NCBI RefSeq assembly: GCF_900104355.1
Contig: NZ_FNIY01000011.1
Span: forward strand, 62,001 to 126,000
Direction of reading: 5' to 3'
Length of the DNA: 64,000 bases
Origin: Phyllobacterium sp. OV277
GTDB lineage: Bacteria > Pseudomonadota > Alphaproteobacteria > Rhizobiales > Rhizobiaceae
The notes below the pieces were generated by a model. It had not been told where the DNA came from. It did no database searches and worked only from the letters and a program-made list of their open reading frames with translations. The translations under genes were made by a program, and so were the position numbers. This document shows, one piece after another, positions 40,288 through 57,919 of this stretch; positions within the stretch are counted from its first letter, which is position 1; the number at the start of each line of letters is the position of its first letter.

Positions 40288-42803
40288 TTGCCTTCCATCA
40301 TCTCGCGGGTCAACTCGTCTGCTATCTCTTCCAGAAGCGTTTCGTGGGCTTCACCCGGAACGCGTTCCTTGCCGATTTCCATCATCACGGGAACAGCGAG
40401 CGGTGATATCCGGTCGAGATCCTTATGAATGATGTGACCCTTGATTCGTCCCAGCATATCGGCAAGGCGGCGAATGTCGAGAAGCCCGGTAGCCGCATCC
40501 GCGCGCGTGGCCTGAATGAGGATATGGTCAGGCTCATGCGTGCGCAGGACGTCATAGATGAGATCCGTCGAGACCGTGACCTGCCGCCCGGTTTTCTCCT
40601 GACCCGGATGGCGCTTTTCCACCAACCCCGAAATCAACGCGCAGTTGCGGAAGGTGCGCTTCAGCATCCAGCTTTCGGACAGCCATGCTTCAAGATCATC
40701 GCCCAGCATATCCTCATCGAAAAACTCAGAAAGCGGCAACTCGCCATTCTTGAACATGCGGCCCATATCGCGCAGTCCCCAGATCGAGAGGGCGTAATCC
40801 GTCGCGACAAAGCCAAGCGGCCGGGCCTTTGCCCGTTCAAGCCGCCGTGTCAGCAGCATGCCGAGGGTCTGATGCGCAAGCCGACCTTCAAAGGGGTAGA
40901 CCACCATGTAATAGCGCTCGCCGCGCGGAAAGGTTTCAACCAGCAAACTGCCGGGATCTGGCAGCACGGATTTTTCCTTCTGGATGCGCAGCCAGTCGCT
41001 GACCTGATCGGGCAGGGCGCCCCAGCGATCAGGGTCCGCAAGCATGGAGCGGACCTGATCGGCGAGATAGGTGGTCAGCGGGAATTTGCCACCCGCATAG
41101 GCGGGGATTTTGGCGTCAAATCCTTCGGCGTTTGAAACGATACATTCGTTCTCGCGGATGCCCTCAAAGCGCAGCACGCGCCCGGAAAAGAAGAACGTAT
41201 CACCAGGCGACAGTGCCTCGAGGAACGACTCCTCGACTTTGCCAAGCACCGGGCCGCCACGCGCATTGCCGCCCTTACCGCGCTGGCGGGTAAGGCGCAC
41301 ATTGAGGCTCGGGGCTTCGATGATCGTGCCGACATTCAGCCGGTATTGCTGGGCAAAACGGGGGTGGGTGACGCGCCATGTGCCATCAGCAGTCTGGCGT
41401 ATCTTGGCAAAGCGCTCATAGCTTTTCAGCGCGTAGCCGCCGGTTGCCACAAAGTCGACAATCCGATGAAACGTTTCATATGGCAGGGTCGCATAGGGCA
41501 GGGCCGTGGTAATCTCGTCGAAAAGTGCCTGTTCATGAAACGGTTCAGCACAGGCCATCCCCAGCACATGCTGGGCAAGCACATCAAGCGAACCATCGCC
41601 AAGCGGCGGTGTGTCCTGCGCCCCGAGATAATTTGCGTCGAGTGCCGCCTGACATTCCATTACCTCGAACCGATTGGCCGGAACGAGGATGGCGCGCGAG
41701 GGTTCATCCATGCGGTGATTGGACCGTCCTATGCGCTGGGCGAGGCGGCTTGCGCCCTTTGGTGCGCCCACATGGATGACCAGATCGACATCGCCCCAGT
41801 CAATACCGAGATCCAGCGTCGACGTGGCAACAACAGCGCGCAGCGCATTGTTGGCCATGGCCTCTTCCACCTTGCGGCGCTTGCTGACATCAAGCGAGCC
41901 GTGGTGCAGTGCTATCGGCAAATTGTCGTCATTGGCCATCCAGAGATCATGGAACAGACGCTCAGCCTGACTGCGGGTATTGACAAAAATCAGCGTCGTC
42001 TTGTGCCGTTTGATCGCCTCATAGACGCCCGGCAGTGCATAGACAGCCGAATGACCGGCCCAGGGAATACGATCCGTGGATTCAAGAATGGTGATATGGG
42101 GTTTGGCTCCGCCTTCGACCTTGACGAGGCTCGCCATGGGCATGCCGTTCACCTGCGGCAACAACCAGCGCCGCAAAGCGTCAGGGTCCGCAACCGTTGC
42201 CGAAAGCCCGATCGTTTGTAGTCCCGGTTGCAGTTTTCGCAACCGGGCCAAACCGAGGGACAAGAGGTGGCCACGTTTGGATGTGACCAGTGAATGCAGC
42301 TCGTCAAAGATCACATAGCGCAAATCGGAAAAGAATCGCCCCGCATCCTTGTTGGCAATCAGCAAAGCAAGCTGTTCCGGTGTGGTCAGGAGAATATCGG
42401 GTGGAACAAGCTTCTGGCGTTGCCGCTTATGGGCAGGCGTATCGCCGGTGCGGGTTTCGATGGTGATATCAAGACCTATCTCTTCGATGGGTCGGGCCAG
42501 ATTGCGCTCGATATCAACCGCCAGCGCCTTGAGCGGCGAGATGTAGAGTGTGTGGACGCCGCGGCTGGTGGTATTGCTTTTGCCGCGCGTTGAAAGATCA
42601 ACCAGTGCAGGCAAAAAGCCCGCCAGCGTCTTGCCAGCGCCCGTCGGTGCAATGAGCAGCGCGGAATGGCCAGATTGCGCTTCCTCCAGCAATTCCAGCT
42701 GATGCGCGCGGGGCGACCAACCCTTGGCCTGAAACCAGTCCAGGAAAGGTTTTGGCAGGAGTGTGCTGTCTTCAGCAAAAAGGGGCTTTGTCTTGGTGCT
42801 CAC
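40284..42803 (-). CDS. Ligase-associated DEXH-box DNA helicase (Lhr family)
   Basis: A large helicase (839 residues from GTG 42803) of the Lhr-type, ligase-associated branch. It has Walker A APTGAGKTLAG (~K58), the DEXH box FDELHSL, LSATVADPDALRRWLLPQ, ATSTLDLGIDWGDVDLVIH, and QRIGRSNHRMDEPSRA (motif VI). A long C-terminal part includes the Lhr winged-helix and DUF4010-like regions. A TTG start at 42839 would add 12 residues; neither start has a convincing ribosome site. It ends with an ATGA overlap to pdeM. It unwinds DNA for the repair module. Confidence 0.9.
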   Translation of the reverse strand: MSTKTKPLFAEDSTLLPKPFLDWFQAKGWSPRAHQLELLEEAQSGHSALLIAPTGAGKTLAGFLPALVDLSTRGKSNTTSRGVHTLYISPLKALAVDIERNLARPIEEIGLDITIETRTGDTPAHKRQRQKLVPPDILLTTPEQLALLIANKDAGRFFSDLRYVIFDELHSLVTSKRGHLLSLGLARLRKLQPGLQTIGLSATVADPDALRRWLLPQVNGMPMASLVKVEGGAKPHITILESTDRIPWAGHSAVYALPGVYEAIKRHKTTLIFVNTRSQAERLFHDLWMANDDNLPIALHHGSLDVSKRRKVEEAMANNALRAVVATSTLDLGIDWGDVDLVIHVGAPKGASRLAQRIGRSNHRMDEPSRAILVPANRFEVMECQAALDANYLGAQDTPPLGDGSLDVLAQHVLGMACAEPFHEQALFDEITTALPYATLPYETFHRIVDFVATGGYALKSYERFAKIRQTADGTWRVTHPRFAQQYRLNVGTIIEAPSLNVRLTRQRGKGGNARGGPVLGKVEESFLEALSPGDTFFFSGRVLRFEGIRENECIVSNAEGFDAKIPAYAGGKFPLTTYLADQVRSMLADPDRWGALPDQVSDWLRIQKEKSVLPDPGSLLVETFPRGERYYMVVYPFEGRLAHQTLGMLLTRRLERAKARPLGFVATDYALSIWGLRDMGRMFKNGELPLSEFFDEDMLGDDLEAWLSESWMLKRTFRNCALISGLVEKRHPGQEKTGRQVTVSTDLIYDVLRTHEPDHILIQATRADAATGLLDIRRLADMLGRIKGHIIHKDLDRISPLAVPVMMEIGKERVPGEAHETLLEEIADELTREMMEGK

Positions 42804-42894
42804 AAGAGCGAATGTAATGATGCGCGGGAAAAGCGCCAAGTTTTCTTTCGCCTGTCTTCGTTAATGAAAGAGCATGGAGGAAATGTTGTCGGTT

Positions 42895-43091
42895 TCACCC
42901 CCCTCTGTCCTGTCGGACATCTCCCCCACAAGGGGCGAGATCAGCTGTATTACTGCCTTTGCACAATCTGCAATGCTTCCGGTTGTGGGAAAGCGCTCGT
43001 GTCAATGTGATCTCCCCCCTTGTGGGGGGTCCGAAGGACGGGCGAGACCCGTGGCTCGCCCCGGAGTCCGACAGGGCAGAGGGGGGTGTGA
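42895..43091. repeat. Imperfect inverted-repeat element between helicase and exonuclease genes
   Basis: Outer arms TCACCCCCCTCTGTCCTGTC (42895-42914, continuing to 42917) and the mirror at 43067-43091 pair with a few gaps. Inner blocks CTCCCCCACAAGGGG and ATCTCCCCCCTTGTGGGG form a second pairing. The element fills most of the divergent gap between the helicase and exonuclease genes. It resembles the GC-rich cores at 28520-28630, so it may be another copy of a related dispersed element. Confidence 0.7.
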
Positions 43092-43115
43092 CACCGCTGC
43101 ATCGAGTGTTCCCCC

Positions 43116-44135
43116 ATGCTGACCCGCCCAGAAGAACTTTTGCGATCCACGCCGGAAGGTCTCTATTCACCAGCGGGGGATTTTTATATCGATCCGGTCA
43201 GCCCGGTTGAACGCGCCTTGATCACCCATGGCCATGCGGATCATGCGAGATCGGGCCACCAGAAGGTCATGGCCACCCGTCAGACCCTTGATATTATGGG
43301 CATACGCTATGGCGATGATTTTGCCGGGTCCACGCAGACAGCCGAACTTGGCGTTGTCACCGAAATCAACGGCGTAAAAGTCAGCTTTCATCCGGCTGGC
43401 CATGTGCTCGGCTCCGCCCAGATTGCGGTTGAGAAAGATGGCATGCGTATTGTCTGTTCGGGCGACTACAAGCGGGCGGCTGATCCAACCTGTCTTGGCT
43501 TCGAGCTGGTGCCCTGCGATGTGTTCATCACCGAAGCCACATTCGCCCTACCGGTGTTCCGTCACCCCAATGCCAGGGACGAAATCGCCAAGCTTCTGAA
43601 ATCGATTGCACAGTTTCCCGAGCGGTCGCACCTTGTGGGTGCCTATGCGCTTGGCAAGGCACAGCGCGTTATCCGCATGATGCGGGATGCGGGCTATGAC
43701 AGGACAATCTACATTCACGGCGCAATGACAAAGCTTTGCGACTATTACCAGTCGCAGGGCATTGATTTGGGACCATTATCCTCCGCCACCGTGGAAACGG
43801 GCACACCGCAGGATTTCGCCGGTAGCGTTGTCGTCGGGCCACCATCGGCTTTCCTTGACCGGTGGGCGCGCCGTTTTCCTGATCCCGTATCGTGCTTTGC
43901 ATCGGGCTGGATGAGCATTCGCCAGCGGGCGCGCCAGCAGGGCGTCGAGTTGCCGATCATCCTGTCAGACCATTGTGATTGGGATGAACTTACCGGTACA
44001 ATCAAGGAGTTGGCGCCGTCGCAGATCTGGGTCACCCATGGACGCGAAGAGGCGCTTGTCAGATGGTGCGAGCTTAATGGTTTTGCCGCACGGCCGCTCA
44101 ATCTTGTCGGCTATGAGGACGAGGGAGATGGATGA
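43116..44135 (+). CDS. Ligase-associated DNA damage response exonuclease (MBL fold)
   Basis: A 339-residue metallo-beta-lactamase-fold nuclease of the SNM1/CPSF-like branch. The metal site is H38-G-H40-A-D42-H43 (THGHADHA), with HPAGHVLGSAQI (~90-101), CSGDYKRAADPT and LSDHCDWDELTGTI further on. It shares the module with the ligase (ATGA overlap) and is divergent from helicase-pdeM. It likely trims DNA ends before ligation. Confidence 0.92.
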   Translation: MLTRPEELLRSTPEGLYSPAGDFYIDPVSPVERALITHGHADHARSGHQKVMATRQTLDIMGIRYGDDFAGSTQTAELGVVTEINGVKVSFHPAGHVLGSAQIAVEKDGMRIVCSGDYKRAADPTCLGFELVPCDVFITEATFALPVFRHPNARDEIAKLLKSIAQFPERSHLVGAYALGKAQRVIRMMRDAGYDRTIYIHGAMTKLCDYYQSQGIDLGPLSSATVETGTPQDFAGSVVVGPPSAFLDRWARRFPDPVSCFASGWMSIRQRARQQGVELPIILSDHCDWDELTGTIKELAPSQIWVTHGREEALVRWCELNGFAARPLNLVGYEDEGDG

Positions 44136-45757
44136 AGGAATTTGCCGCGCTGCTTGACCGGCTGGTGCTGACGCCGCAGCGCAATGGCAAGATCACGCTG
44201 CTCGTCGACTATTTCAGGCAGACACCGGACCCGGACCGGGGCCTTGCCCTTGCTGCGATTACGCGTGATCTTGACATCGCCAATGTCAAACCCGCCATGC
44301 TGCGCGGGCTCATTGCCGAGCGCATGGATGAGCAGCTTTTTGCCTATTCCTATGATTATGTCGGCGATCTTGCCGAAACCATTTCCCTTGCCTGGGCAGC
44401 CAAAGAGCCATCGCGGGTCAACGCCATTCCGACCCTTGGTGATGTCGTCGCTTCACTGGCGCGCGCCTCACGCAGCGATGCGATAAGGCTGGTGGAAAAA
44501 TGGCTTGATCAGCTCGATGCATCCGCCCGCTATGCCCTTTTGAAGCTGGTCACCGGTGGTCTGCGCATTGGCGTTTCGGCAAGGTTGGCCAAGCAGGCAC
44601 TGGCGGATTTCGGCAAAGTGGATGTCGGCGAGATTGAAGAACTCTGGCACGGGCTGAAGCCACCCTATCAATCTCTCTTCGCTTGGCTTGAAGGAAAAGC
44701 GGAAAAGCCGGCAAGCATTGCTGCCGCGCCATTCCGCCCGGTTATGCTCTCAACCCCGCTTGAAGAGCCTGACTACGCGAAAATCATCGCAGAGGATTAT
44801 GCGGCGGAATGGAAATGGGACGGCATCCGCGTGCAATTGACCGCGGAGGCGGGGCAGCGCCGCATTTATTCGCGCACGGGCGACGATATCTCCCACGCCT
44901 TTCCGGATATTGCCGATGCCATGAATTTCGAGGGCACACTTGACGGCGAACTGCTCGTTGCACGCAGTAGCACCGACACCATAGAGATCGGTGCCTTCGG
45001 TGATCTGCAGCAACGGCTCAACCGCAAAATTGTCACGGCCAAGCAGATGGAAAGTCATCCGGCTTTCGTGCGGCTCTACGATCTGCTGTTTGATGGCGCA
45101 GAAGATATCCGGGCCTTGCCCTTCGCTGAACGACGCGAAAAACTTGAGCGTTTTGTCACCACACTCGACGCTACGCGTTTCGATTTGTCACCGCTCGTAC
45201 CCTATGAAACGTTTCATGATCTGGTGGAGCTGCGAAAAAACCCTCCGCACCCCATCATCGAAGGATTGATGCTGAAGCGGCGCGACTCCACTTACGTGCC
45301 CGGACGTCCGAAAGGACCCTGGTTCAAATGGAAACGCGATCCCTTCATCATTGACGCCGTGCTCGTCTATGCGCAGCGCGGCCATGGCAAGCGATCCAGC
45401 TTCTACTCGGATTATACTTTCGCCGTCTGGACCGGCCCCGAAGAGAACCCACATCTCGTGCCCGTCGGAAAGGCCTATTTCGGCTTTACCGACGAAGAAT
45501 TGAAACAACTCGACGCCTATGTGCGCAATAATACCACGGAGCGTTTTGGCCCGGTGCGATCAGTGCGGGCGGAGCCGGATCATGGGCTCGTGCTGGAAAT
45601 AGCCTTTGAGGGACTGAACCGGTCGAAACGTCACAAGTCAGGTGTTGCCATGCGGTTTCCGCGTATTTCGCGCCTGCGCTGGGACAAGCCGCCGATTGAG
45701 GCGGACCGGCTGGAAACACTGGAATCCTTGCTGCGCAATGCCGATCCTGTGGATTGA
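44132..45757 (+). CDS. Cisplatin-type ATP-dependent DNA ligase (LigC/LigB-like)
   Basis: A 541-residue ATP-dependent DNA ligase. The adenylated lysine is K228 in WKWDGIRVQL (KxDG), followed by GELLVARS, EGLMLKRRDSTYVPGRPKG and PWFKWKRDPF (motifs III-V). It has an N-terminal DNA-binding domain (~1-200) and a C-terminal OB-fold (~410-541). This four-gene arrangement is a known ligase-associated repair module. The start overlaps the exonuclease gene (ATGA). Confidence 0.94.
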   Translation: MKEFAALLDRLVLTPQRNGKITLLVDYFRQTPDPDRGLALAAITRDLDIANVKPAMLRGLIAERMDEQLFAYSYDYVGDLAETISLAWAAKEPSRVNAIPTLGDVVASLARASRSDAIRLVEKWLDQLDASARYALLKLVTGGLRIGVSARLAKQALADFGKVDVGEIEELWHGLKPPYQSLFAWLEGKAEKPASIAAAPFRPVMLSTPLEEPDYAKIIAEDYAAEWKWDGIRVQLTAEAGQRRIYSRTGDDISHAFPDIADAMNFEGTLDGELLVARSSTDTIEIGAFGDLQQRLNRKIVTAKQMESHPAFVRLYDLLFDGAEDIRALPFAERREKLERFVTTLDATRFDLSPLVPYETFHDLVELRKNPPHPIIEGLMLKRRDSTYVPGRPKGPWFKWKRDPFIIDAVLVYAQRGHGKRSSFYSDYTFAVWTGPEENPHLVPVGKAYFGFTDEELKQLDAYVRNNTTERFGPVRSVRAEPDHGLVLEIAFEGLNRSKRHKSGVAMRFPRISRLRWDKPPIEADRLETLESLLRNADPVD

Positions 45758-45788: not shown

Positions 45789-46586
45789 TCATTTCTGCGG
45801 AGGCATGGGGAAAAAGATGCTGGTGCGCTGCTGATAATCCCGGAAAGCCTGACCGCGTGTCGCCAGCATATGTTCCTCCAGCGGTGGCACACCTGACGTA
45901 TGACGCAGCAGTATGTACATCAGTACAGGCGCGGCGAGCGTCAGCCAGCCATGCACATAATCACCATCGAAATCCGCCGCAATCAGCACATAGGACACCC
46001 AGCCAAGCCATTCAAAAAAATAGTTTGGATGACGCGACCAGCGCCAGAGGCCGGTGTCACATATCTTGCCGCGATTGGCGGGATTGCGGGAAAACCGCTT
46101 GAGCTGCCAATCGGCAATCGCTTCACCCGCAAGGGCAATAAGCATAACGACAAGCCCAAGATAATCCGGAAATTCGAGATCTATGTCAGGCCGGGCGGCG
46201 GCTATATAGACGCTGATGACAAGCAAAATTCCGGCGAACGCCTGGCTTTGCAGAAAAAAGAACATGCGCGAATTGGCAGCGGAACCCCACTCCCGGCGCA
46301 AGCGTGCATAACGCGGATCGTCCTCGCTGTTGAGCGTGCGAAGCAGAATATGTCCACCCAACCGCAACGACCAGAGCGCGAGCAGAATGATCACCAGCCA
46401 TTTTCGCGATGACGAGACCATATCGTTTGAAAACAAAATCGAGAGAATGCCAATTGCGCCCACACCGAACGACCAGAAAGTGTCAGCCCACCCGCTATTG
46501 CCGGTCATACGCTGCGCGAGGAACGCGCAGGCCATGACAACGCAAAGGGCGACAGCTGCAATGATGAGAATGACCGGAGCTGTCAT
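45789..46586 (-). CDS. DUF1295 membrane protein (steroid-reductase/ICMT-like)
   Basis: A 265-residue integral membrane protein with about seven hydrophobic segments. The C-terminal motif CDTGLWRWSRHPNYFFEWLG (~181-200) and SGVPPLEEHM are typical of DUF1295, related to 3-oxo-5-alpha-steroid 4-dehydrogenase and isoprenylcysteine methyltransferases. An N-terminal half-helix bundle precedes. The substrate is unknown. It is convergent with the ligase gene (31-bp gap). Confidence 0.85.
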   Translation of the reverse strand: MTAPVILIIAAVALCVVMACAFLAQRMTGNSGWADTFWSFGVGAIGILSILFSNDMVSSSRKWLVIILLALWSLRLGGHILLRTLNSEDDPRYARLRREWGSAANSRMFFFLQSQAFAGILLVISVYIAAARPDIDLEFPDYLGLVVMLIALAGEAIADWQLKRFSRNPANRGKICDTGLWRWSRHPNYFFEWLGWVSYVLIAADFDGDYVHGWLTLAAPVLMYILLRHTSGVPPLEEHMLATRGQAFRDYQQRTSIFFPMPPQK

Positions 46587-47160
46587 GCATTTGACCTGTT
46601 ATTCACGATGGAGTTTGGCTGATGTTCAAAAAGGCGGGACAACATAACATACAGGATTTTTCCAATCGGCAAATCACAACAAGGAATGGACCCATTTTTG
46701 TCCGTAGCCCCGAAACAAAGTTTGCAGTGTCTTGAAGCGGTCTTTCGAGCCGACAGTTTCCTTATCTTTTAGTCTTATATCAGATAGCAAGACAGCCAGC
46801 TCTGCTCACTAGTGCTAAAATCTGAACAGCATCCGAAACGCTTCGATAACCAAATTTCAATTTTGATGAAAAATCTCGAAACAGGTGGTGCGATAGCGCA
46901 TGAACGACGATTTTTGATCAGAAAAAGGCGAGAATTGGCCCGGCGGTCCACATCATGCACATTTTTTTTGACGTTTTCGTAAAATTGGCTTCTACGCCAA
47001 ACAGCCTGAAAATGCTGCTTATTCCCGCTCTTAACTCGATTTAGGTCATTTCGACGACTCGCACAATTCGCATAATTCGGAAAATCGACGGCTTGCGTTT
47101 GGCCAAATTTTGGCTTTTGTTCATGCCTTCATAATTCTTCAAAGGGGAAGGACTAAAAAA
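46587..47160. other. 574-bp intergenic region before the oppA cluster
   Basis: This AT-rich stretch holds no gene I can support. A T8 run (46962-46969) merges into TTGACG, with a poor -10 (TCTACG) 17 bp later, a weak promoter candidate. TTTGGCCAAA (47098-47107) is a perfect 10-bp palindrome 53 bp before oppA1. The length suggests a long 5' leader for oppA1, where small-RNA control would be possible. Confidence 0.5.
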
Positions 47161-48756
47161 ATGTCATTTATGAAACTCAATCTCCGTGCGGCACTGCTGC
47201 TTGGATCGCTGATGATAGGCGCAAGCCCGGCACTGGCTGAGACCGTGCTGCATCGCGGCAACAGCGGTGAACCGCAGACGCTTGATCAGGCACAGACCTC
47301 GATTGATATCGAGGCATTCATCGTCAAGGACCTCTATGAAGGCCTGACGATTTATGATGCCAACGGCAAGATTGTTCCGGGCACAGCCGAAAGCTGGAAA
47401 GTTTCCGATGATGGCACAGTTTACACCTTCAAGCTGCGCGACAAGGCCAACTGGTCCGATGGCACCCCTGTAACAGCCGAAGATTTTGTCTTCTCGATGC
47501 GCCGCGTCGAAGACCCCAAGACCGCTGCCGGTTATGCCAACATTCTTTATCCGATCAAGAATGCCGAAAAGGTCAACAAGGGTAATGCAAAGCTTGAAGA
47601 ACTTGGCGTAAAGGCAATTGATGCCAAGACTCTTGAAATCACGCTCGAACGTCCAACCCCGTTCTTTATCGAGCTGCTTTCGCACCAGACCGCACTGCCA
47701 ATCAACAAGGCAAGCTTTGAAAAGAATGGTGCTGATTTCGTCAAACCGGGCAAGCTGGTTGGCAATGGCGCATTCAAGCTGCTTGAGCATGTACCGAACG
47801 ACCATCTGACCGCTGCCAAGAACGAGAATTATTGGGACGCGGCAAACGTCAAATTGGACAAGGTGATTTTCTATCCTCTGGAAGATCAGGCGGCAGCCGT
47901 CCGACGATACGAAGCAGGTGAACTCGACCTCGTTTACAACTTCTCTTCTGACCAGATCGAGCGCATGCGCGCTGCCAATGCCAAGCAGGTCCACGTGACC
48001 CCGGCGATGGCGACCTATTACTACCCCTTCGATACACGTACCGCGCCATTCGATGATGTTCGCGTTCGCCGCGCTCTTTCCATGGCCGTTGACCGCGACT
48101 TCCTCGCCAAGGACATCTATAACGGCACCAAACTGCCTGTCTATTCTCTGGTTCCTCCGGGCATGGAAAATTACGGCGAGCCATCCAAGGCCGATTTTGC
48201 CGACCTGTCACAGCTTGATCGCGATGATCAGGCCGTCAAGTTGTTGAAGGAAGCGGGCTTTGGCGAAGGCGGCAAGCCGCTCAACATCGAAATCCGTTAC
48301 AACACCAACCCGAACCACGAGCGTGTGGCAACGGCGGTTGCTGATATGTGGAAGAAGACATTGGGCGCCAATGTGACGCTGATGAATCTCGATATCTCAT
48401 CGCACTACGCCTATCTGCAGGAAGGCGGCAAATTCAACGTTGCCCGTGCAGGCTGGACAGCCGACTATGCGGACCCGGAAAACTTCCTCAACCTCAATGT
48501 CAGCAGCAACAAGACTTTCAACTATGGCCATTATTCCAATCCGGAATTCGATGCGCTGATGAAGAAATCCTATGAAGAGCGCAATCCGGCAGAACGCTCG
48601 AAGATTCTGCATGCAGCAGAAGCGTTGATCATGCGCGACCAGCCGATTGCGCCTTTGATGAATGACGCCAACCTTTGGCTCGTGGCCGACAAGGTCAAGG
48701 GCTGGGGCGATAACCCCAACAACGAACATCTGAGCAAATACCTCAGCGTTGAATAG
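47161..48756 (+). CDS. oppA: Oligopeptide ABC transporter binding protein, copy 1
   Basis: A 531-residue periplasmic binding protein of the DppA/OppA family (SBP_bac_5). A signal peptide (~1-25, cleaved at ALA-E) precedes VLHRGNSGEPQTLDQAQTSI, EAFIVKDLYEGLTIYDANG, and a ligand-binding core with PFIELL.. and PVYSLVPPGMENYGEPS. The frame is open upstream to 47110; ATG 47161 gives the clean signal peptide. It is the first of four tandem paralogs and is followed by a strong terminator, so it is probably made in excess of the transporter. Confidence 0.92.
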   Translation: MSFMKLNLRAALLLGSLMIGASPALAETVLHRGNSGEPQTLDQAQTSIDIEAFIVKDLYEGLTIYDANGKIVPGTAESWKVSDDGTVYTFKLRDKANWSDGTPVTAEDFVFSMRRVEDPKTAAGYANILYPIKNAEKVNKGNAKLEELGVKAIDAKTLEITLERPTPFFIELLSHQTALPINKASFEKNGADFVKPGKLVGNGAFKLLEHVPNDHLTAAKNENYWDAANVKLDKVIFYPLEDQAAAVRRYEAGELDLVYNFSSDQIERMRAANAKQVHVTPAMATYYYPFDTRTAPFDDVRVRRALSMAVDRDFLAKDIYNGTKLPVYSLVPPGMENYGEPSKADFADLSQLDRDDQAVKLLKEAGFGEGGKPLNIEIRYNTNPNHERVATAVADMWKKTLGANVTLMNLDISSHYAYLQEGGKFNVARAGWTADYADPENFLNLNVSSNKTFNYGHYSNPEFDALMKKSYEERNPAERSKILHAAEALIMRDQPIAPLMNDANLWLVADKVKGWGDNPNNEHLSKYLSVE

Positions 48757-48764
48757 CAAAGTCT

Positions 48765-48804
48765 GACGCGCAATCTGCACTCGCAGGTTGCGCGTCTTTC
48801 ATTT
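48765..48804 (+). terminator. Strong intrinsic terminator after oppA copy 1
   Basis: GACGCGCAATCTGC (48765-48778) pairs with GCAGGTTGCGCGTC (48783-48796) as a 14-bp stem with one wobble and a tetraloop ACTC, followed by TTTCATTT. It would end or attenuate transcription between oppA copies 1 and 2. Confidence 0.85.
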
Positions 48805-48947
48805 GCCCGGCTCGTTATGTGCCACTTTTCCGACCGCAAAATCAAAAACCTGATCGACCCGCCGCTATTCTTTCACCGGATAGTGAACGGGAAAACATTG
48901 CCATTTCATACCGATCACTGACCAATCATTGGTGAGGAGACAGCCAG

Positions 48948-50546
48948 ATGACGTTTGTAAAGTTCAATTTTACCGCCGCATTGCTTGCCGGATCGCTTCT
49001 TCTGGCTGCCAGCCCGGCGCTTGCCGAAGCTGTTCTGCACCGTGGCAATAGCGGTGAACCGCAAACGCTCGACCCGTCGCAAACATCGCTTGAAATCGAG
49101 GCGTTCATCCTGAAAGACCTCTATGAGGGTCTGACAAGCTATGATCCCGCTGGCAAGATCGTTCCGGGCGCTGCCGAAAGCTGGACCGTCTCTGATGACG
49201 GTACTGTTTACACGTTCAAGATCAGAGCCAATGCCAACTGGTCCGACGGATCGCCCGTCACCGCGGATGATTTCATTTTCTCGTTCAAACGCGTCGAAGA
49301 GCCAAAGACGGCTGCTGGCTACGCCAATATGCTTTATCCGATCAAAAATGCCGAAAAGATCAACAAGGGCGAACTTCCCATCGACCAGATGGGCATGAAG
49401 GCAATCGATGCCAAAACCCTTGAGATCACGCTGGAACGGTCAACACCGTTCTTCGTCGAATTGCTGGCGCACCAGACCGCGCTGCCGGTTAACAAGGCCA
49501 GTCTTGAAAAGAACGGCGCCGAATTCATCAAACCAGGCAAACTCGTCTCCAATGGAGCGTTCCAGCTCGCTGAACACGTACAGAATGATCACCTGACCGC
49601 AGCCAAGAACCCGCATTATTGGGGTGCGGCGGATGTGAAACTCGACAAGGTGATCTTCAATCCGACCGAAGATCAGGCAGCAGCCGTGCGGCGCTTCGAA
49701 GCCAAGGAACTGGACCTTGTCTACAATTTCTCCGCCGACCAGATCGAACGGCTGCGCGCATCCATGGGTGATCAGGTTCGTATCACTCCGGCGCTGTCGA
49801 CCTATTTCTATTCATTTGACACCCGCGTTGAACCCTTCAGCGATGTGCGTGTGCGCCGCGCACTGTCCATGACCATCGATCGCGATTTCCTGTCGAAGGA
49901 AATCTACAAGGGTGCCCAGCTTCCCGCCTATTCCCTCGTACCGCTCGGCATTGCCAGTTACGGCGAACCGGCCAAATCCGATTTTGCCGACATGTCGCAG
50001 CTTGATCGCGAAGATAAGGCACTGGAGCTGATGAAAGAGGCAGGTTATGGCGAGGGCGGCAAGCCGCTCAATATCGAAATCCGCTACAACACAAATCCCA
50101 ACCATGAACGCGTTGCCATCGCGGTTGCGGATATGTGGAAAAAGGCATTCGGTGCCACTGTCACCCTGCTGCAGAACGACGTCAGCGCCCACTACGCTTA
50201 CCTGAAAGAGGGCGGCAAATTCAACGTGGCCCGCGCCGGCTGGACGGCTGATTATGCCGATGCAGAGAACTTCATGGTCATTAATCTGAGCACCAATACC
50301 ACGTTCAATTATGGCCGCTGGAACAACCCGGAATTCGATGCCCTTGTCAAAAAGTCCTATGACGAAAAAGACCCGGCTGCCCGCTCCAAAATCCTGCATG
50401 AAGCCGAAGCCTTGGTACTGCGCGAACAGCCCGTCGCGCCGATGATGAATTTTGGCCAGCTCTGGCTTGTCTCCAACCGGGTGAAGGGTTGGGCAGATAA
50501 CGGCACCAACGATCACCTCAGCAAATACCTTAGCCTTGAACAGTAA
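48948..50546 (+). CDS. oppA: Oligopeptide ABC transporter binding protein, copy 2
   Basis: A 532-residue paralog of copy 1. The signal peptide is MTFVKFNFTAALLAGSLLLA and the mature start is EAVLHRGNSGEPQTL. It diverges most in the ligand-facing part (TSYDPAGKI, IRANANWSDGSPVTADDFIF, ENFMVINLSTNTTFNYGRW) and in the C-terminus (MNFGQLWLVSNRVKGWADNG). It is preceded by a terminator and its own 140-bp leader, so it may have its own promoter. Gene order suggests it shares the OppBCDF membrane complex. Confidence 0.92.
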   Translation: MTFVKFNFTAALLAGSLLLAASPALAEAVLHRGNSGEPQTLDPSQTSLEIEAFILKDLYEGLTSYDPAGKIVPGAAESWTVSDDGTVYTFKIRANANWSDGSPVTADDFIFSFKRVEEPKTAAGYANMLYPIKNAEKINKGELPIDQMGMKAIDAKTLEITLERSTPFFVELLAHQTALPVNKASLEKNGAEFIKPGKLVSNGAFQLAEHVQNDHLTAAKNPHYWGAADVKLDKVIFNPTEDQAAAVRRFEAKELDLVYNFSADQIERLRASMGDQVRITPALSTYFYSFDTRVEPFSDVRVRRALSMTIDRDFLSKEIYKGAQLPAYSLVPLGIASYGEPAKSDFADMSQLDREDKALELMKEAGYGEGGKPLNIEIRYNTNPNHERVAIAVADMWKKAFGATVTLLQNDVSAHYAYLKEGGKFNVARAGWTADYADAENFMVINLSTNTTFNYGRWNNPEFDALVKKSYDEKDPAARSKILHEAEALVLREQPVAPMMNFGQLWLVSNRVKGWADNGTNDHLSKYLSLEQ

Positions 50547-50606
50547 CCGCTTGGCCGCTGCGCTATGCGCAACGTGTTTGGATAAAGAGTGAAAGGACGG
50601 TCGACG

Positions 50607-52199
50607 ATGTCTGTGAAATTCAATTTACGTGTTGCGGCGCTGTTGGGCACGTTGATGCTCGCTGCAAGTCCCGCCCTTGCCGAAGTGGTTCTGCATCGTG
50701 GTAATAGCGGTGAGCCCAATACGCTCGATCAGGCACAGACATCCATCGATATTGAAGCTTTCATCGTCAAGGACCTTTATGAAGGGCTGACAATCTACGA
50801 CGCCAGCGGCAAGATTGTTCCCGGTGCAGCGGAAAGCTGGAAAGTCTCTGACGATGGCACTGTTTACACCTTCAAGCTGCGCGACAGGGCCAACTGGTCT
50901 GACGGCACGCCGGTTACGGCTGAGGATTTCGTCTTCTCCTATCACCGCATCGAAGACCCGAAGACAGCGGCCAAATACGCCAATATTCTCTACCCGATCA
51001 AAAATGCCGAAAAGATCAACAAGGGTGAAATGCCCATTGATCAGCTTGGCGTGAAGGCTGTTGATGCGAAGACGCTCGAAGTCACATTGGAGCGGTCAAC
51101 ACCCTTCTTTCTGGAACTGCTGGCACACCAGACTGCGCTCCCGATCAATAAGGCGAGTTTCGAAAAGAACGGTGCTGATTTCGTCAAACCGGGCAAGCTG
51201 GTCAGCAATGGCGCTTTCAAGCTGCTTGAGCACGTGCCGAATGACCATCTGACTGCTGGAAAGAACCCCGAATATTGGGACGCTGCCAGCGTCAAGCTCG
51301 ACAAGGTGGTTTTCTATCCAACCGAGGATGATGCGGCGGCGCTTCGGCGTTTTGAAGCCAAGGAAATGGATATCGTCTTCAATTTCTCGGCGGATCAGAT
51401 CGCACGCCTGCGCAAATCATGGGGTGAGCAGGTTCATATTTCACCGCGTCTTGGAACCTATTATTACGCCTTTGACTCGCGCACCGAGCCATTCAATGAT
51501 GTTCGTGTGCGCAATGCGCTGTCCATGGCAATCGACCGCGATTTCCTAGCCAATGAAATTTACAGCGGTGCACAGCTGCCAGCCTATTCCGTTGTCGCTC
51601 CGGGTATCGCCAGTTATGGCGAGCCGGAAAAGCCGGCTTTTGCCGGCATGTCCCAGTTGGATCGTGACGACAAGGCAGTCGCTCTGATGAAGGAAGCCGG
51701 GTATGGTCAAGGTGGCAAACCGCTGAACATTGAAATCCGCTACAACACCAATGCCAACCACGAGCGTATCGCCACTGCGGTTGCTGATAATTGGAAGAAA
51801 ACCTTCGGCGCCAACGTCACCCTGATGAACCTCGATGTGTCATCCCACTACGCCTACCTGCAGGAGGGCGGCAAGTTCAACGTCGCGCGGGCCGGATGGA
51901 TTGCTGATTACGCCGATGCTGAAACCTTCCTCGCGCTCCACATGAGCACCAACAAAACCTTCAATTACGGACATTACAACAATCCGGAATATGACGCGCT
52001 GATGAAGAAATCCTACGACGAGCGCGATCCGGTGGCCCGTTCCAAAATCATGCACGAGGCGGAAGCCCTGCTGGCGCGCGACCAACCAACCACCACACTG
52101 ATGAACAGTGCCAACCTCTGGCTTATCGCCAGCAAAGTCAAAGGCTGGATTGATAATGCGCCAAACGAACATCTGAGCAAATTTCTGAGCCTTGAATAG
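50607..52199 (+). CDS. oppA: Oligopeptide ABC transporter binding protein, copy 3
   Basis: A 530-residue paralog. It starts at ATG 50607 (MSVKFNLRVAALLGTLML), preceded by GAAAGGACGG; the leader is nearly the same as that of copy 4. Marker differences are YHRIEDPKTAAKYANILYPI, LLARDQPTTTLMNSANLWLI and ADNWKKTFGAN, where copies 1, 2 and 4 have ADMWKK. Copies 3 and 4 are the closest pair. Confidence 0.92.
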   Translation: MSVKFNLRVAALLGTLMLAASPALAEVVLHRGNSGEPNTLDQAQTSIDIEAFIVKDLYEGLTIYDASGKIVPGAAESWKVSDDGTVYTFKLRDRANWSDGTPVTAEDFVFSYHRIEDPKTAAKYANILYPIKNAEKINKGEMPIDQLGVKAVDAKTLEVTLERSTPFFLELLAHQTALPINKASFEKNGADFVKPGKLVSNGAFKLLEHVPNDHLTAGKNPEYWDAASVKLDKVVFYPTEDDAAALRRFEAKEMDIVFNFSADQIARLRKSWGEQVHISPRLGTYYYAFDSRTEPFNDVRVRNALSMAIDRDFLANEIYSGAQLPAYSVVAPGIASYGEPEKPAFAGMSQLDRDDKAVALMKEAGYGQGGKPLNIEIRYNTNANHERIATAVADNWKKTFGANVTLMNLDVSSHYAYLQEGGKFNVARAGWIADYADAETFLALHMSTNKTFNYGHYNNPEYDALMKKSYDERDPVARSKIMHEAEALLARDQPTTTLMNSANLWLIASKVKGWIDNAPNEHLSKFLSLE

Positions 52200-52262
52200 C
52201 AACCGCTGCACGCCGTGCCTTAGGCAGCGTGTTCAGATAGAGAAGAGAAAGGACGGTAGACG

Positions 52263-53858
52263 ATGTCTGTGAAGTTCAATTTACGTGTCGCGGCGCTCTT
52301 GGGCGGGCTTATGCTGACGGCCAGTCCGGCCCTGGCTGAAGCGGTTCTGCATCGCGGCAATGCGGGCGAGCCCAACACGCTTGATCAGGCGCAGACATCC
52401 ATCGATATTGAAGCCTTTGTGGTGAAGGACCTTTATGAAGGTCTGACCGTTTATGACGCCCACGGCGCTATCATACCGGGTGCGGCGGAAAGCTGGAAAG
52501 TCTCCGACGATGGCACCGTCTATACGTTCAAATTGCGCGCCAATGCCAACTGGTCCGATGGCACGCCGGTGACCGCAGAAGATTTCGTGTTCTCCTACCG
52601 CCGTATCGAAGACCCGAAAACAGCGGCGAAATACGCCAACATTCTCTATCCGATCAAAAATGCTGAAAAGATCAACAAGGGTGAACTACCCACTGACCAG
52701 CTCGGCGTGAAAGCTGTCGACGCCAAGACCGTCGAGATCACACTGGAACGTGCGACGCCCTTCTTTATCCAGTTGATGGCGCACCAGACGGCGCTGCCCA
52801 TCAGCAAGGCCAGTTACGAAAAGAATGGTCCTGATTTCGTCAAGCCCGGCAAGATGGTTTCAAACGGCGCGTTTGAACTTGTCGACCATGTGCTGAACGA
52901 CCATCTGACTGTCGCAAAGAACCCCGATTACTGGGATGCGGCCAACGTCAAACTGGACAAGGTCATCTTCTATCCGCTGGAGGATGATGCGGCGGCAGTC
53001 CGGCGCTTCGAGGCGGGCGAATTGGATACAGTCTATAATTTCTCGGCTGACCAGATCGAACGGTTACGCAAATCATGGGGTGATCAGGTTCACGTCACAC
53101 CAGCGCTGGCGACGTATTACTATGCGTTCGACAGCCGCACCGAACCGTTCAACGATGTTCGTGTACGCAACGCGCTTTCCATGTCTATTGATCGCGATTT
53201 CCTTACCAAGGAAATCTATAGCGGCGCGCAATTGCCAACCTATTCGCTCGTCCCTCCGGGGCTTGCCACCTATGGCGAACCATCCAAAGCTGCTTACGCC
53301 GACATGTCGCAGCTGGACCGCGACGACAAGGCCGCCTCCCTGATGAAAGAGGCTGGCTACGGCGAAGGCGGCAAGCCGCTCAATATCGAAATCCGCTATA
53401 ATACCAATGCCAATCATGAGCGGGTTGCCACGGCTGTTGCCGATATGTGGAAAAAGGCATTCGGCGCGAAGGTCACTCTGATGAACCTCGATGTGTCATC
53501 GCATTATGCCTACCTGCAGGAGGGCGGCAAGTTCAACGTCGCCCGGGCCAGCTGGTTCGCGGATTATGCCGACGCTGAAAACTTCCTTGCCCTGAATGTC
53601 AGCAGCAACAAGACATTCAACTATGGCCACTACAACAATCCGGAATATGACGCGCTGATGAAAAAGTCCTATGACGAGCGCGATCCTGATGTCAGGTCAA
53701 AAATCATGCATGAGGCGGAAGCCCTGCTGACCCGCGATGAGCCCATCGCATCGCTGATGAACAGTGCCAATCTCTGGCTGATTTCCAAAAAGGTCAAAGG
53801 CTGGGGCGACAATCCAACCAACGAACACCTGAGCAAATATCTGAGCCTTGCGGAATAA
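52263..53858 (+). CDS. oppA: Oligopeptide ABC transporter binding protein, copy 4
   Basis: A 531-residue paralog, very similar to copy 3, including the first ten residues (MSVKFNLRVA) and the leader GAGAAGAGAAAGGACGG. Specific changes are VDHVLNDHLTVAKNPDYW, ARASWFADYADAENFLALNV and TRDEPIASLMNSANLWLISK. It is followed by oppB after 70 bp. A recent tandem duplication of copies 3 and 4 is likely. Confidence 0.92.
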   Translation: MSVKFNLRVAALLGGLMLTASPALAEAVLHRGNAGEPNTLDQAQTSIDIEAFVVKDLYEGLTVYDAHGAIIPGAAESWKVSDDGTVYTFKLRANANWSDGTPVTAEDFVFSYRRIEDPKTAAKYANILYPIKNAEKINKGELPTDQLGVKAVDAKTVEITLERATPFFIQLMAHQTALPISKASYEKNGPDFVKPGKMVSNGAFELVDHVLNDHLTVAKNPDYWDAANVKLDKVIFYPLEDDAAAVRRFEAGELDTVYNFSADQIERLRKSWGDQVHVTPALATYYYAFDSRTEPFNDVRVRNALSMSIDRDFLTKEIYSGAQLPTYSLVPPGLATYGEPSKAAYADMSQLDRDDKAASLMKEAGYGEGGKPLNIEIRYNTNANHERVATAVADMWKKAFGAKVTLMNLDVSSHYAYLQEGGKFNVARASWFADYADAENFLALNVSSNKTFNYGHYNNPEYDALMKKSYDERDPDVRSKIMHEAEALLTRDEPIASLMNSANLWLISKKVKGWGDNPTNEHLSKYLSLAE

Positions 53859-53928
53859 TGAGCCGGGTCCAATAGAGTGAGTAGGTGCAGCTACTGCGGA
53901 AGCTGCACAGAAGAGAGAGTATATCTCC

Positions 53929-54852
53929 ATGTTTCATTTCGTCCTTCGCCGACTGGCGAGTGCGGTGCCGACATTGTTTATAGTCGTCACCATTTCGTTC
54001 TTCCTGATGCGGTTTGCACCGGGCGGTCCCTTCAACCTTGAAAGACCGCTGCCGCCAGCGACGATGGAAAACCTGATGAAGGCTTACCATCTGGATCAGC
54101 CGCTCTGGAACCAGTATCTGCAATATCTCAAAAATGCAGTGACCGGCGATTTTGGACCGAGCTATATCTATAAGGACAATACGATTGCCGAGCTGATCGG
54201 CAAGGGTCTGCCTTACTCGGTGGAACTCGGCTTTTATGCCCTGCTGCTCGCGCTCTTCGGCGGCGTTATTGTTGGAACGATCGCCGCTTTGCGGCAGAAC
54301 AGCATTCTCGATTTCCTGATCATGTCCGTCGCAACCATCGGCGTGACCGTTCCTAACTTCGTTGTCGGTCCGGTGCTGACATTGATCTTTGCCGTGCTTT
54401 TGTCTCTCTTGCCTGCGGGCGGTTGGGGCGATGGCTCATGGCGCTTCCTCATTCTACCGATGATCGCTCTAGCATTGCCGCAGCTTGCGGTGTTTGCCCG
54501 CCTCACGCGTGGCTCGATGATTGAAGGTCTGCACACGGATCACATCCGCACGGCACGCGCCTACGGCTTGCCGCCAAGGACAGTCGTGATCACCCATGCG
54601 ATGCGCGGCGCGCTGCTGCCTGTTGTCTCTTATCTCGCGCCCTGCGCTGCTGCCTTGCTGACCGGTTCTGCCGTGGTCGAAACCATTTTCACCATTCCCG
54701 GCGTCGGTCGCTACTTCGTGCTGGGCGCTATCAATCGCGATTATACGCTTGTGATGGGAACCGTGGTTCTCGTGGCGATTTTCGTTATCGTTTTCAATCT
54801 CGTGGTCGATATTCTGTACGGCCTTCTTGATCCGAGGGTTCGCCATGACTGA
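53929..54852 (+). CDS. oppB: Oligopeptide ABC transporter permease OppB
   Basis: A 307-residue inner-membrane permease with six membrane segments. Family features are FVLRRLASAVPTLFIVVTIS at the N-terminus, VTVPNFVVGPVLTLIFAVLL, and the EAA-type loop TDHIRTARAYGLPPRTVVIT (~203-222). GSAVVETIFTIPGVGRYFVL is a further OppB hallmark. It forms the pore with OppC. The stop overlaps the oppC start by 8 bp. Confidence 0.94.
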   Translation: MFHFVLRRLASAVPTLFIVVTISFFLMRFAPGGPFNLERPLPPATMENLMKAYHLDQPLWNQYLQYLKNAVTGDFGPSYIYKDNTIAELIGKGLPYSVELGFYALLLALFGGVIVGTIAALRQNSILDFLIMSVATIGVTVPNFVVGPVLTLIFAVLLSLLPAGGWGDGSWRFLILPMIALALPQLAVFARLTRGSMIEGLHTDHIRTARAYGLPPRTVVITHAMRGALLPVVSYLAPCAAALLTGSAVVETIFTIPGVGRYFVLGAINRDYTLVMGTVVLVAIFVIVFNLVVDILYGLLDPRVRHD

Positions 54853-55975
54853 TGTGTCCACAACAATCATCCCAGAGGAAGAATCCAAGGGACGCAGCCT
54901 GTTTCAGCTGGCGACACTCCGCTTCCGCCGCAACCGAGCAGCGATGGCTGGTTGCGTCATGCTGTTCTTCATCACCATCTTTTCGTTCTTCGGACCGTAT
55001 TTCCTGACCCACACCTATGATCAGGTTTTCTCGTCCTATGTCACGATCCCGCCAAGCGTCGAGCCGCTTCCAAAGGCAGATACGCTCGGCGATGTCATGA
55101 AGGGCGTCGCAAGCCGCGCCAAGGTGGAGCTGAGGGAGTTTGCCGTCAGCGGCAATACATTCACGGCGACCATCCATTCGGATCAGACCATTGATCCGCG
55201 CACGACGCGCTATTTTGATCGTGCAAACGAGTTCGACGATACGCAGGTTGCCGCCACGGAAGATGATGGCAAGACCCTGAAACTCTCAGGCAACGTCAAC
55301 CGCGAATACTTCTTCTTCGGCACCGACGCCAATGGCCGCGATATGCTGGCTCGTGTCATGCTCGGCGGACAAATCTCGCTGGCTGTTGGCTTTCTCGCCA
55401 GTCTTGTCTCACTTGCTGTGGGCGTCACCTATGGGGCGATCTCGGGTTATCTCGGCGGCCGCGTCGACAATGTGATGATGCGCCTTATCGAAATTCTTTA
55501 TTCACTGCCCTTCGTGTTTCTCGTCGTGGTTCTCGTCGTCTTCTTCGGGCGAAGTTTTATCCTGATCTTTCTGGTGATCGGTGCGGTGGAATGGCTTGAT
55601 ATGGCACGTATTGTGCGCGGTCAGACCCTTGCACTCAAACGCCGGGAATTCATCGGAGCGGCGCAGGCCTTGGGGTTAACAGACTGGCAGATTATCCGCC
55701 GTCATATCATCCCCAATACAATTGGTCCGGTTATCGTGTTCGTTACGGTCGTGGTGCCGAAAGTCATTCTTCTGGAAAGTTTTCTGTCCTTCCTCGGTCT
55801 TGGTGTTCAGGCACCCCTGACCAGTTGGGGCGCACTGATTTCCGAAGGCGCAAACAAGATGCAGTCCGCACCCTGGTTGCTGATTTTCCCTGCCATTTTC
55901 TTTGTTATCACCCTGTTCTCGCTGAACTTCATCGGTGATGGCCTGCGTGATGCTCTCGACCCGAAGGACCGCTAA
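54845..55975 (+). CDS. oppC: Oligopeptide ABC transporter permease OppC, with enlarged periplasmic loop
   Basis: A 376-residue permease. The first membrane helix (~33-53) is followed by about 100 residues of polar sequence (VFSSYVTIPPSVEPLPKADT to VNREYFFFGTDANGRDML), where usual OppC has ~25-30. Then come five helices and the loop RREFIGAAQALGLTDWQIIR (EAA motif). The C-terminus (GDGLRDALDPKDR) is the standard OppC end. The insert would face the periplasm and could help dock binding proteins. ATG 54845 lies inside the oppB end. Confidence 0.93.
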   Translation: MTDVSTTIIPEEESKGRSLFQLATLRFRRNRAAMAGCVMLFFITIFSFFGPYFLTHTYDQVFSSYVTIPPSVEPLPKADTLGDVMKGVASRAKVELREFAVSGNTFTATIHSDQTIDPRTTRYFDRANEFDDTQVAATEDDGKTLKLSGNVNREYFFFGTDANGRDMLARVMLGGQISLAVGFLASLVSLAVGVTYGAISGYLGGRVDNVMMRLIEILYSLPFVFLVVVLVVFFGRSFILIFLVIGAVEWLDMARIVRGQTLALKRREFIGAAQALGLTDWQIIRRHIIPNTIGPVIVFVTVVVPKVILLESFLSFLGLGVQAPLTSWGALISEGANKMQSAPWLLIFPAIFFVITLFSLNFIGDGLRDALDPKDR

Positions 55976-55976
55976 A

Positions 55977-57581
55977 ATGACGGACAACAAAGATACTGTA
56001 TTGTCCGTACGCGGACTGAAAGTTGACTTCACCACCCCGGACGGCGATGTGAACGCCGTCAAAGGCATCGATCTCGATGTCCGGCCGGGCGAAACACTCG
56101 CCGTTGTCGGTGAATCCGGCTCCGGCAAGAGCCAGACCATGATGGGCATTATGGGCCTGCTCGCCCAGAATGGCCGCGTGACCGGCTCGGCCAAATATCG
56201 CGGCAAGGAATTGGTCGGCCTGCCAACCAAGGCGCTCAATGAGGTGCGCGGCTCAAAGATCACCATGATCTTTCAGGAGCCGATGACCTCGCTTGATCCG
56301 CTCTACACGATTGGCCGGCAGATCGCTGAACCCATCGTTCATCATAAGGGCGTCAGCTTCAAACAGGCCAAGGTTCGTGTACTGGAACTGTTGAAACTTG
56401 TCGGCATTCCCGAGCCGGAGCGACGCATCAACAGCTATCCGCATGAAATGTCGGGGGGACAACGCCAGCGTGTCATGATTGCCATGGCACTTGCCAATGA
56501 GCCTGATCTTCTGATCGCGGACGAGCCAACCACAGCTCTTGACGTGACCATTCAGGCGCAAATTCTTGATTTGCTGCGTGACTTGCAGAAGCGTTTCGGC
56601 ATGGCCATCGTGCTGATCACCCATGATCTTGGCGTGGTCAAACACTTTGCCGAACGTGTCGTTGTCATGCGGCGCGGCGAAGTGGTGGAAAAGGGTACGA
56701 TCAAGGACATTTTCGGAAACCCGAAGGAAGACTACACCAAAATGCTGCTGGCTTCCGAGCCCAGCGGCAGCAAATCGCCCCCCGAAGACAAAGCGCCGAT
56801 CATGCTGGAAGGGCGCAATGTGACGGTCGATTTTGCCATTGGCGGCGGCTTCTTCTCCAGCGCACACACGCATTTCCGCGCCGTGGACGGCGTGACGGTG
56901 AAGCTCAAGGCGCGGCAAACCATCGGTATTGTCGGTGAATCCGGTTCCGGCAAGTCAACCCTCGGCCGGGCGCTGCTGCGTCTGTTGCCGAGCAGCGGCC
57001 AGTATCATTTTGAGAAAAAGAACATTTCCAACTTCGATCGCTCGGCGATGCGTCCCTTGCGCCGGGAATTGCAGCTGGTGTTTCAGGACCCTTATGGATC
57101 ATTGTCGCCACGCCAGACTGTGGGCGAGATTATCACCGAGGGCCTGCTCATTCACGAGCCGCAATTGTCGCGGGCTGACCGCGACAAGCGAGCGATTGCA
57201 GCACTCAAGGAAGTGGGGCTCGATCCAACCGCGCGCAACCGTTATCCGCATGAATTCTCCGGCGGGCAACGCCAGCGTGTCGCCATTGCACGCGCGATGA
57301 TCCTGAAGCCGAAAGTCGTTATTCTCGATGAACCGACGTCCGCGCTCGACCGGTCCGTGCAGGGGCAGGTCATCGAACTCTTGCGGGATCTGCAGGCCAA
57401 GCATGATCTGTCCTACATTTTCATCAGCCACGACCTCGCCGTTATCAAGGCGATGTCCGATTATGTCATCGTGATGAAAAGCGGAAAGATCGTCGAAGAA
57501 GGCCAGACAGACGATATTTTTGACGCGCCCCAGCATGATTATACCAAGACACTGATCGGGGCTGCCTTCGATCTGGATTGA
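55977..57581 (+). CDS. oppDF: Fused oligopeptide ABC transporter ATPase OppD-OppF
   Basis: A 534-residue tandem ATPase with two full nucleotide-binding domains. Domain 1 has GESGSGKS at ~45-52, [12 protein letters not shown] and ADEPTTALD. Domain 2 has GESGSGKST at ~320-328, [12 protein letters not shown] and [10 protein letters not shown]-terminal Opp-type extensions follow each. The single gene replaces separate oppD and oppF, as in Gsi/Yej-type systems. ATG 55977 lies 1 bp after the oppC stop and is chosen over the in-frame 55935. Confidence 0.93.
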
Positions 57582-57650
57582 TGACTTCTCGCGTCTGGTG
57601 AGGCTATTCTGTAGACAATGCGTAAATCTATGTAAACGCGGAGCTTTAGA

Positions 57651-57878
57651 ATGGCCTTTTCCATCAAGGACGAGACAACAGATGCCGCGGTCAGGCGGCT
57701 GGCGAAAATGAAAAATACCAGCCTCACGGATGCTATTCGTGAGGCTGTCGAGAATGAATATAATTGCATCCCGTTGCAGGAGCGACTTGAAGCGCTGTCA
57801 AAGCGTTATCAATCTTATCCCGAAACCGGGTTGGACGCCGACAAGACATTTTTCGATGGTGTCTCTAACGACATCTGA
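57651..57878 (+). CDS. vapB: Orphan VapB-type antitoxin
   Basis: A 75-residue protein with the Rv0623-type VapB fold: MAFSIKDETTDAAVRRLAKM, then SLTDAIREAVENEY (ribbon-helix-helix-like), and a charged tail. This family is normally followed by a VapC PIN-domain toxin starting at the stop. Here the downstream frame at 57878 overlaps the fructokinase gene on the other strand and has no PIN Asp/Glu motif (MLSDVYAKWPETLRLK). The toxin is therefore missing. It may be a decayed module or an antitoxin retained for addiction-free protection. Confidence 0.78.
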   Translation: MAFSIKDETTDAAVRRLAKMKNTSLTDAIREAVENEYNCIPLQERLEALSKRYQSYPETGLDADKTFFDGVSNDI

Positions 57879-57919
57879 TGCTTAGTGACGTCTACGCCAA
57901 GTGGCCTGAAACGCTCCGC

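Follow-up and report, generated by a model that had tools for sequence, protein, structure and literature searches.

Peptide importers in which several receptors serve one membrane complex have been described before. According to extracts of PMC4206461, Pseudomonas aeruginosa has several paralogous receptors, DppA1-A5, for DppBCDF, four of which have their genes close to a single permease-ATPase operon, and the expression of the receptors was reported to be unequal. Borrelia burgdorferi has the receptors OppA1-OppA5; its three chromosomal oppA genes are found in tandem and arose by duplication with changes in the ligand cavities, and the expression profiles are not simply polycistronic (extracts of PMC5736914). 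For the oligopeptide systems 65 and 73 of Brucella, two binding proteins are tabulated together with a pair of permeases and a single fused double ATPase (ABC2) (extracts of PMC2821768), and in pneumococci up to five paralogous receptors, AmiA and AliA-D, go with one peptide permease, Ami (extracts of PMC11192437).

The published multi-receptor peptide importers cited here come from pathogens, while Phyllobacterium is a plant- and soil-dwelling genus. It belongs to the same bacterial order as Brucella. We have analyzed a stretch of 64,000 nucleotides (the window) of Phyllobacterium sp. OV277, whose 5.33 Mb assembly contains 33 SBP_bac_5 genes. With one to four tandem receptors on the same importer, this genus offers a natural series for studying the role of extra receptors, which could also inform on what sets the ratio of receptor to permease in a single operon and on paralog loss by recombination.

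Organization of the locus

Four intact reading frames lie head to tail on the plus strand at 47161-53858, namely A1 (47161..48756, 531 aa), A2 (48948..50546, 532 aa), A3 (50607..52199, 530 aa) and A4 (52263..53858, 531 aa). They are followed on the same strand by single genes for the permeases OppB (53929..54852) and OppC (54845..55975, from ATG 54845, 376 aa) and for OppDF (55977..57581), a fusion protein of 534 aa that combines two ABC ATPase domains. The four tandem OppA-type genes of 530-532 aa that a preliminary description had placed ahead of single oppB, oppC and oppDF genes were therefore borne out in lengths and coordinates. OppB passes the curated OppB cut-off of NF007008 (398.6 vs 388 bits), and the best family of OppC is the OppC family NF011935, at 363 bits, below its curated cut-off of 433. 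Each of the four leaders ends in ALAE and is by eye of Sec type. The closest named cluster is that of Phyllobacterium myrsinacearum DSM 5892, with an A4 94% identical.

The leader upstream of A1 (approximately 46960-47160) is conserved throughout the genus and carries, ahead of the ribosome-binding site, a TTTGACG-like block and a TTTGTTCATGCCTTC block; inspection by eye found none of this before A2-A4. Farther upstream, 40284-45757 contains a large minus-strand frame (851 aa) and then the frames 43116-44135 and 44132-45757, which we take, by eye, to resemble a ligase-associated exonuclease and an ATP-dependent DNA ligase. Tandem peptide-type receptors recur in the same genome, which has two more adjacent SBP_bac_5 pairs (G000:C22:461321-464053 and G000:C13:31959-35083). 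In Phyllobacterium sp. 628 the same oppA array is located on plasmid p_1 (L002, 611,708 bp), a large plasmid or chromid, and because of this location the array may travel between strains with a replicon of that type.

Family and fold of the receptors

All four proteins are well over the cut-off of PF00496 (SBP_bac_5), with 306-326 bits vs 32.4 and E <= 3.7e-91. Searches against structures were carried out with A4, which matched the solved MppA and OppA structures by sequence with E values of about 1e-103 to 1e-108. Its AlphaFold model (mean pLDDT 83) had OppA and MppA as best matches in the fold search (2z23, 1ola, 3o9p), with a TM-score of about 0.86. Against the curated equivalog cut-offs the scores were low, 387-422 bits for the OppA family NF011684 (cut-off 947) and 312-326 bits for NF007287 (cut-off 1098), presumably the MppA family. 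A1-A4 are OppA-type relatives and predicted receptors, not enterobacterial equivalogs. The literature searched gave no data on the ligands, expression or transport activity of these Phyllobacterium proteins; among papers on Phyllobacterium oligopeptide substrate-binding proteins none matched this cluster, judging by the openings of the abstracts, and those on tandem receptor duplication included nothing relevant, judging by the listings.

Copy number and history in the genus

The number of oppA copies varied among 20 Phyllobacterium genomes, with four in 2, three in 3, two in 5 and one in 10, whereas every genome had a single oppB match at E <= 1e-110. DSM 5892, a further named genome beyond these 20, has three copies, A1, A2 and A4. 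A1 was present in 21/21 genomes, counting that of G007, where it is cut by a contig end and the two oppA genes are on different contigs. Whenever there is more than one copy, A2-A4 are lined up immediately before oppB (in G007 with A1 on another contig). A survey of 297 genomes of the family, in which at most four candidates per genome were scored, detected multiple matches at E <= 1e-160 in five, four of the five sampled Phyllobacterium and G277.

The 40 Phyllobacterium copies included in a 110-protein tree formed one group (SH-aLRT 91.6, not starred), divided into the clades A1 (21 rows), A2 (11) and A3/A4 (8); this and the other trees are quick searches with SH-aLRT support only. Because each clade is represented in the two main groups into which the permease tree divides, A3/A4 solely via G013, the tandem duplication most likely occurred on the stem of the genus. 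In G002, G006, G007 and G012 the A2-oppB junction resembles the short junction of the outgroups, including its stem-loop, and G013, the sister of G006, carries the A3 junction of the window's group. Copy changes at the level of the root could possibly represent loss with exchange of junctions, or an early polymorphism.

Outside Phyllobacterium, Aminobacter niigataensis (L047:8899-15620) and G277 (contig C3) have two diverged OppA copies before oppB, with about 3.4 kb of other frames between them. The L047 copies are 59% and 57% identical to the nearest window copy, and this is a separate multi-receptor case. In another relative (L137, genome G263) the oppA match contains one in-frame TAA.

Age of the copies

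The preliminary description had taken the leader and N-terminus common to A3 and A4 as the sign of a recent duplication. The likeness of the leaders is real, since the first 31 alignment columns are 83.3% identical at the DNA level (75/90) against 64.5-68.9% in the five other pairs. The duplication itself is not recent. A3 and A4 share 84.2% of their amino acids, more than A1-A4 (79.4%), A1-A3 (78.3%) and the remaining pairs (74.4-75.7%), and the nucleotide identity over the whole gene is 79.4%, falling to 57% at third positions. Their dS of 1.23 (NG86) falls inside the range found between orthologs of different species (0.58-1.54), so the copies A1-A4 are old. This value and the separate, well supported clades (SH-aLRT 99-100 for A4 and 97-98 for A3) rule out recent duplicates, and in the trees the two lineages separated before the species of the window's subgroup did. 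Over the first 60 codons the window A4 has a higher identity with the A3 of its own array (83.6%) than with its DSM 5892 counterpart, A4 (77.4%). The common leader appears better explained by a local exchange than by a recent duplication.

The third copy of G013 groups with A3 in both trees. Its placement is less sure because of its 110 diagnostic sites 55 are of A3 type, 42 of A4 type and 13 of neither, and the A3/A4 split inside the window's subgroup is independent of it.

Recombination between paralogs

We found three gene ends that look chimeric. The third gene of DSM 5892 starts with 13/13 diagnostic sites of A3 type when the A3 genes of G009 and G014 are the reference (the same start is mixed when compared with the window A3), and continues with 118 A4-type, 61 A3-type and 15 other sites. 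The A2 of G003 is A2-type at 135/149 sites; its last four sites are of A4 type and an A4-type oppB spacer comes next. Likewise, the A3 genes of the sister genomes G009 and G014 have four terminal A4-type sites and use the A4-type oppB spacer. The evidence for each of the 3' cases consists of four sites and the spacer. These three chimeric-looking gene ends look as if left by deletion through recombination between paralog ends, and the mixed sites within the genes suggest further small exchanges.

When 40 rows were divided into 32 windows of sixty codons each, the nearest relative belonged to another paralog group in 40 of the 1280 windows, 27 of them in the three A4 rows, for which few orthologs were available, and 9 in the third copy of G013. 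Local exchange between paralogs is likely for this reason. The recombination between copies that had been marked for checking thus seems likely as local events, in these windows and in the chimeric-looking ends. General gene conversion is not supported, since paralogs are about as similar within a genome as across genomes: 0.748 vs 0.745 for A1-A2 and, at the largest gap, 0.748 vs 0.734 for A2-A4.

Selection and ligand-contact positions

In nine ortholog comparisons, which covered all four copies (A4 with one), dN/dS was between 0.023 and 0.075, values that indicate strong purifying selection and hence copies that are maintained. The preliminary description had also noted that ligand-side residues differ between copies. 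We took the contact positions of the enterobacterial OppA from two computational papers (extracts of PMC9967938 and PMC6305025) and mapped 21 of them, of which 20 were counted after dropping 247, located in a gap; Arg41 and Asn506 were left out. The window copies differ at 8/20 (34, 229, 245, 269, 404, 415, 417 and 485), so that the binding pockets are not identical in the four. The observation holds to that extent, but the contacts are not more variable than the protein as a whole (175/492, Fisher p 0.64).

Six of these eight positions (34, 229, 245, 269, 404 and 485) reach a fixation of at least 80% in every paralog clade, which makes a wider ligand range for the receptor set plausible; 415 and 417 are not fixed across the three A4 rows. 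Paralog-fixed sites were found at 6/20 contacts vs 62/472 positions elsewhere (p 0.044), a post hoc count on which we do not rely. Y109, H161, N366, H371, R413, W416 and D419 are as in OppA and invariant in 48/48 rows. Asp419 is the acidic residue that holds the peptide N-terminus, with R413, W416 and Y109 at the same site (extracts of PMC9967938 and PMC6305025). The pattern fits a common grip on the backbone with altered side-chain pockets, without proving it. The OppA contact map may transfer poorly to these proteins because in almost every one of the 48 rows E32, H405, T438 and L504 of OppA are replaced by S, E, Y and N.

Codon bias and the stem-loop after A1

Codon bias decreases along the array. 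With weights from the window's own genome, where 23 genes for ribosomal proteins and translation were picked out by eye as reference, the CAI was 0.727 for A1, 0.687 for A2, 0.642 for A3 and 0.636 for A4, compared with 0.585-0.620 for the permease-ATPase genes and 0.476 to 0.776 for 21 other genes of the window, 7 of which were above A4 and one above A1. The same order appears across genomes, with A1 over A2 in 11/11 multi-copy genomes, A2 over the third copy in 6/6 and A3 over A4 in 2/2. In 3/3 species comparisons A1 had the lowest dS of the copies compared. A1 is likely made in excess and the other receptors at lower levels, which suggests an array of one abundant receptor and minor ones.

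Just past the A1 stop there is a predicted RNA stem-loop (48765..48796, plus strand, 14-bp stem and 4-nt loop, z -4.8), within the 191 bp spacer between A1 and A2 (48757..48947, plus strand), the first part of which aligns by eye with the A1-oppB spacer of single-copy relatives. Among 47 stretches folded, 29 were below z -2. They include those after A1 in 19/20 Phyllobacterium (the exception is G005), after the single oppA in 7/8 outgroups and after A2 in 3/5 cases in which oppB comes next. Where another oppA follows, none was found after A2 (0/6) or A3 (0/2). The count was also 0/6 after the last A3 or A4, where the folded 55 bases omit part of the spacer. As with the CAI, these counts are not independent, the genomes being related. 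An 8-bp stem ahead of oppB (53885..53908, plus strand) is no stronger than shuffled sequence (z -0.3), and is also present in this position in the six genomes of the subgroup and in G013. In G006 (L164) the A1-A2 spacer is 384-bp long; a short TTCGACAAGCTCA element occurs there in inverted copies and looks like a repeat that has inserted into the array.

The set of A1 stem-loops (20 sequences, 18 distinct) had changes on both sides at 8/12 consensus pairs. The covariation score was 0.420 against a shuffled mean of 0.224, reached by 0/500 shuffles and above every slid version; of the five covariation measures, the one that counts pair types was not above the shuffles (17 vs 15.7, reached by 142/500). 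Known RNA families were absent from 46400-57900 up to E 1, and a narrow literature search, in which all terms were jointly required, retrieved no paper on intergenic stem-loops setting the receptor:permease ratio. The A1 stem-loop could be a weak terminator. It may act by message protection or by partial termination.

A model for the array and its rivals

We consider it probable that the locus encodes an OppBC-DF oligopeptide ABC importer with four periplasmic OppA receptors that work as follows. Each receptor would close on a peptide and grip its N-terminus via the conserved Asp (Asp419 of OppA), all four would dock on the same OppBC pore, as their adjacency suggests, and ATP hydrolysis by OppDF would power uptake. 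A1 would be the abundant general receptor, its message protected or separated by the stem-loop, and A2-A4, at a lower level and with different side-chain pockets, would widen or tune the peptide range. One importer with several receptors, as proposed from the outset, is the best reading of a single oppB with one to four oppA in 20/20 genomes, of the purifying selection and of the published precedents, once opines and a recent duplication are taken out of it. More tentatively, the array may be a receptor bank graded by position, in which the stem-loop sets apart an abundant, always kept A1 and the other copies, expressed at lower levels, provide a reserve stock of alternative pockets, which recombination among the paralogs reshuffles and thins. 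If this were true, related species would differ in which minor receptors they hold.

The copies might instead bind the same peptides and be kept for more receptor or as back-up. The differences are not enriched at contact positions, 10/20 genomes live with a single oppA and the substrate profiles of 4/5 DppA proteins of P. aeruginosa overlap (extracts of PMC4206461), all in line with such a dosage effect. We regard it as rather unlikely, given that the pocket positions 34, 229, 404 and 485 stay at least 80% paralog-fixed across the genus and that the extra copies have the lower codon bias, odd if amount were the aim. Murein-peptide (MppA-like) uptake, in which at least one copy would return cell-wall tripeptides to the same permease, seems less probable still. 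In E. coli MppA works with OppBCDF, and it is the nearest solved structure to A4 by sequence (4toz, 3o9p) and second, third and seventh in the fold ranking, with 38% identity; against this, all four copies score higher with NF011684 (387-422 bits) than with NF007287 (312-326), both far below the cut-offs. That some copies serve other permeases, or chemotaxis or signalling, is made possible by the 33 SBP_bac_5 genes of the genome, but the row of A2-A4 directly upstream of oppB in multi-copy genomes speaks against it and we give it little credence. The opines included in the range proposed by the preliminary description, or opine-like sugar-amino-acid compounds, are the most improbable ligands of all. 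Some agrobacterial family-5 receptors (AgaA, AccA) are named opine receptors in the PDB, and yet A4 matched AgaA at 5e-26 and the AccA group at 1e-16 to 1e-18, against 1e-108 for OppA/MppA, its nearest relatives by sequence and fold, and AgaA appeared 46th in the fold search.

Comparison with known systems

Compared with the oligopeptide importer proposed here, P. aeruginosa has a receptor pair of similar divergence, DppA1 and DppA3 being 83% identical, comparable to A3 and A4. As far as the extracts of PMC4206461 go, the DppA receptors differ in belonging to the dipeptide (DppA) family, in having separate DppD and DppF and in that dppA4 is apparently co-transcribed with a porin gene; besides, their substrate profiles were measured. 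The Borrelia system differs by its two permease pairs and two plasmid-borne receptors (extracts of PMC5736914). The Brucella systems have two receptors instead of four, and the likeness is one of tabulated composition (extracts of PMC2821768). In the pneumococcal case AmiA is described as a lipoprotein, AliA and AliB have locus tags away from the Ami genes, and AliC and AliD are confined to non-encapsulated strains (extracts of PMC11192437). The arrangement is thus of a known kind, and what is distinctive here is the number of tandem OppA genes, its variation within a single genus and the gradation of signals along the array.
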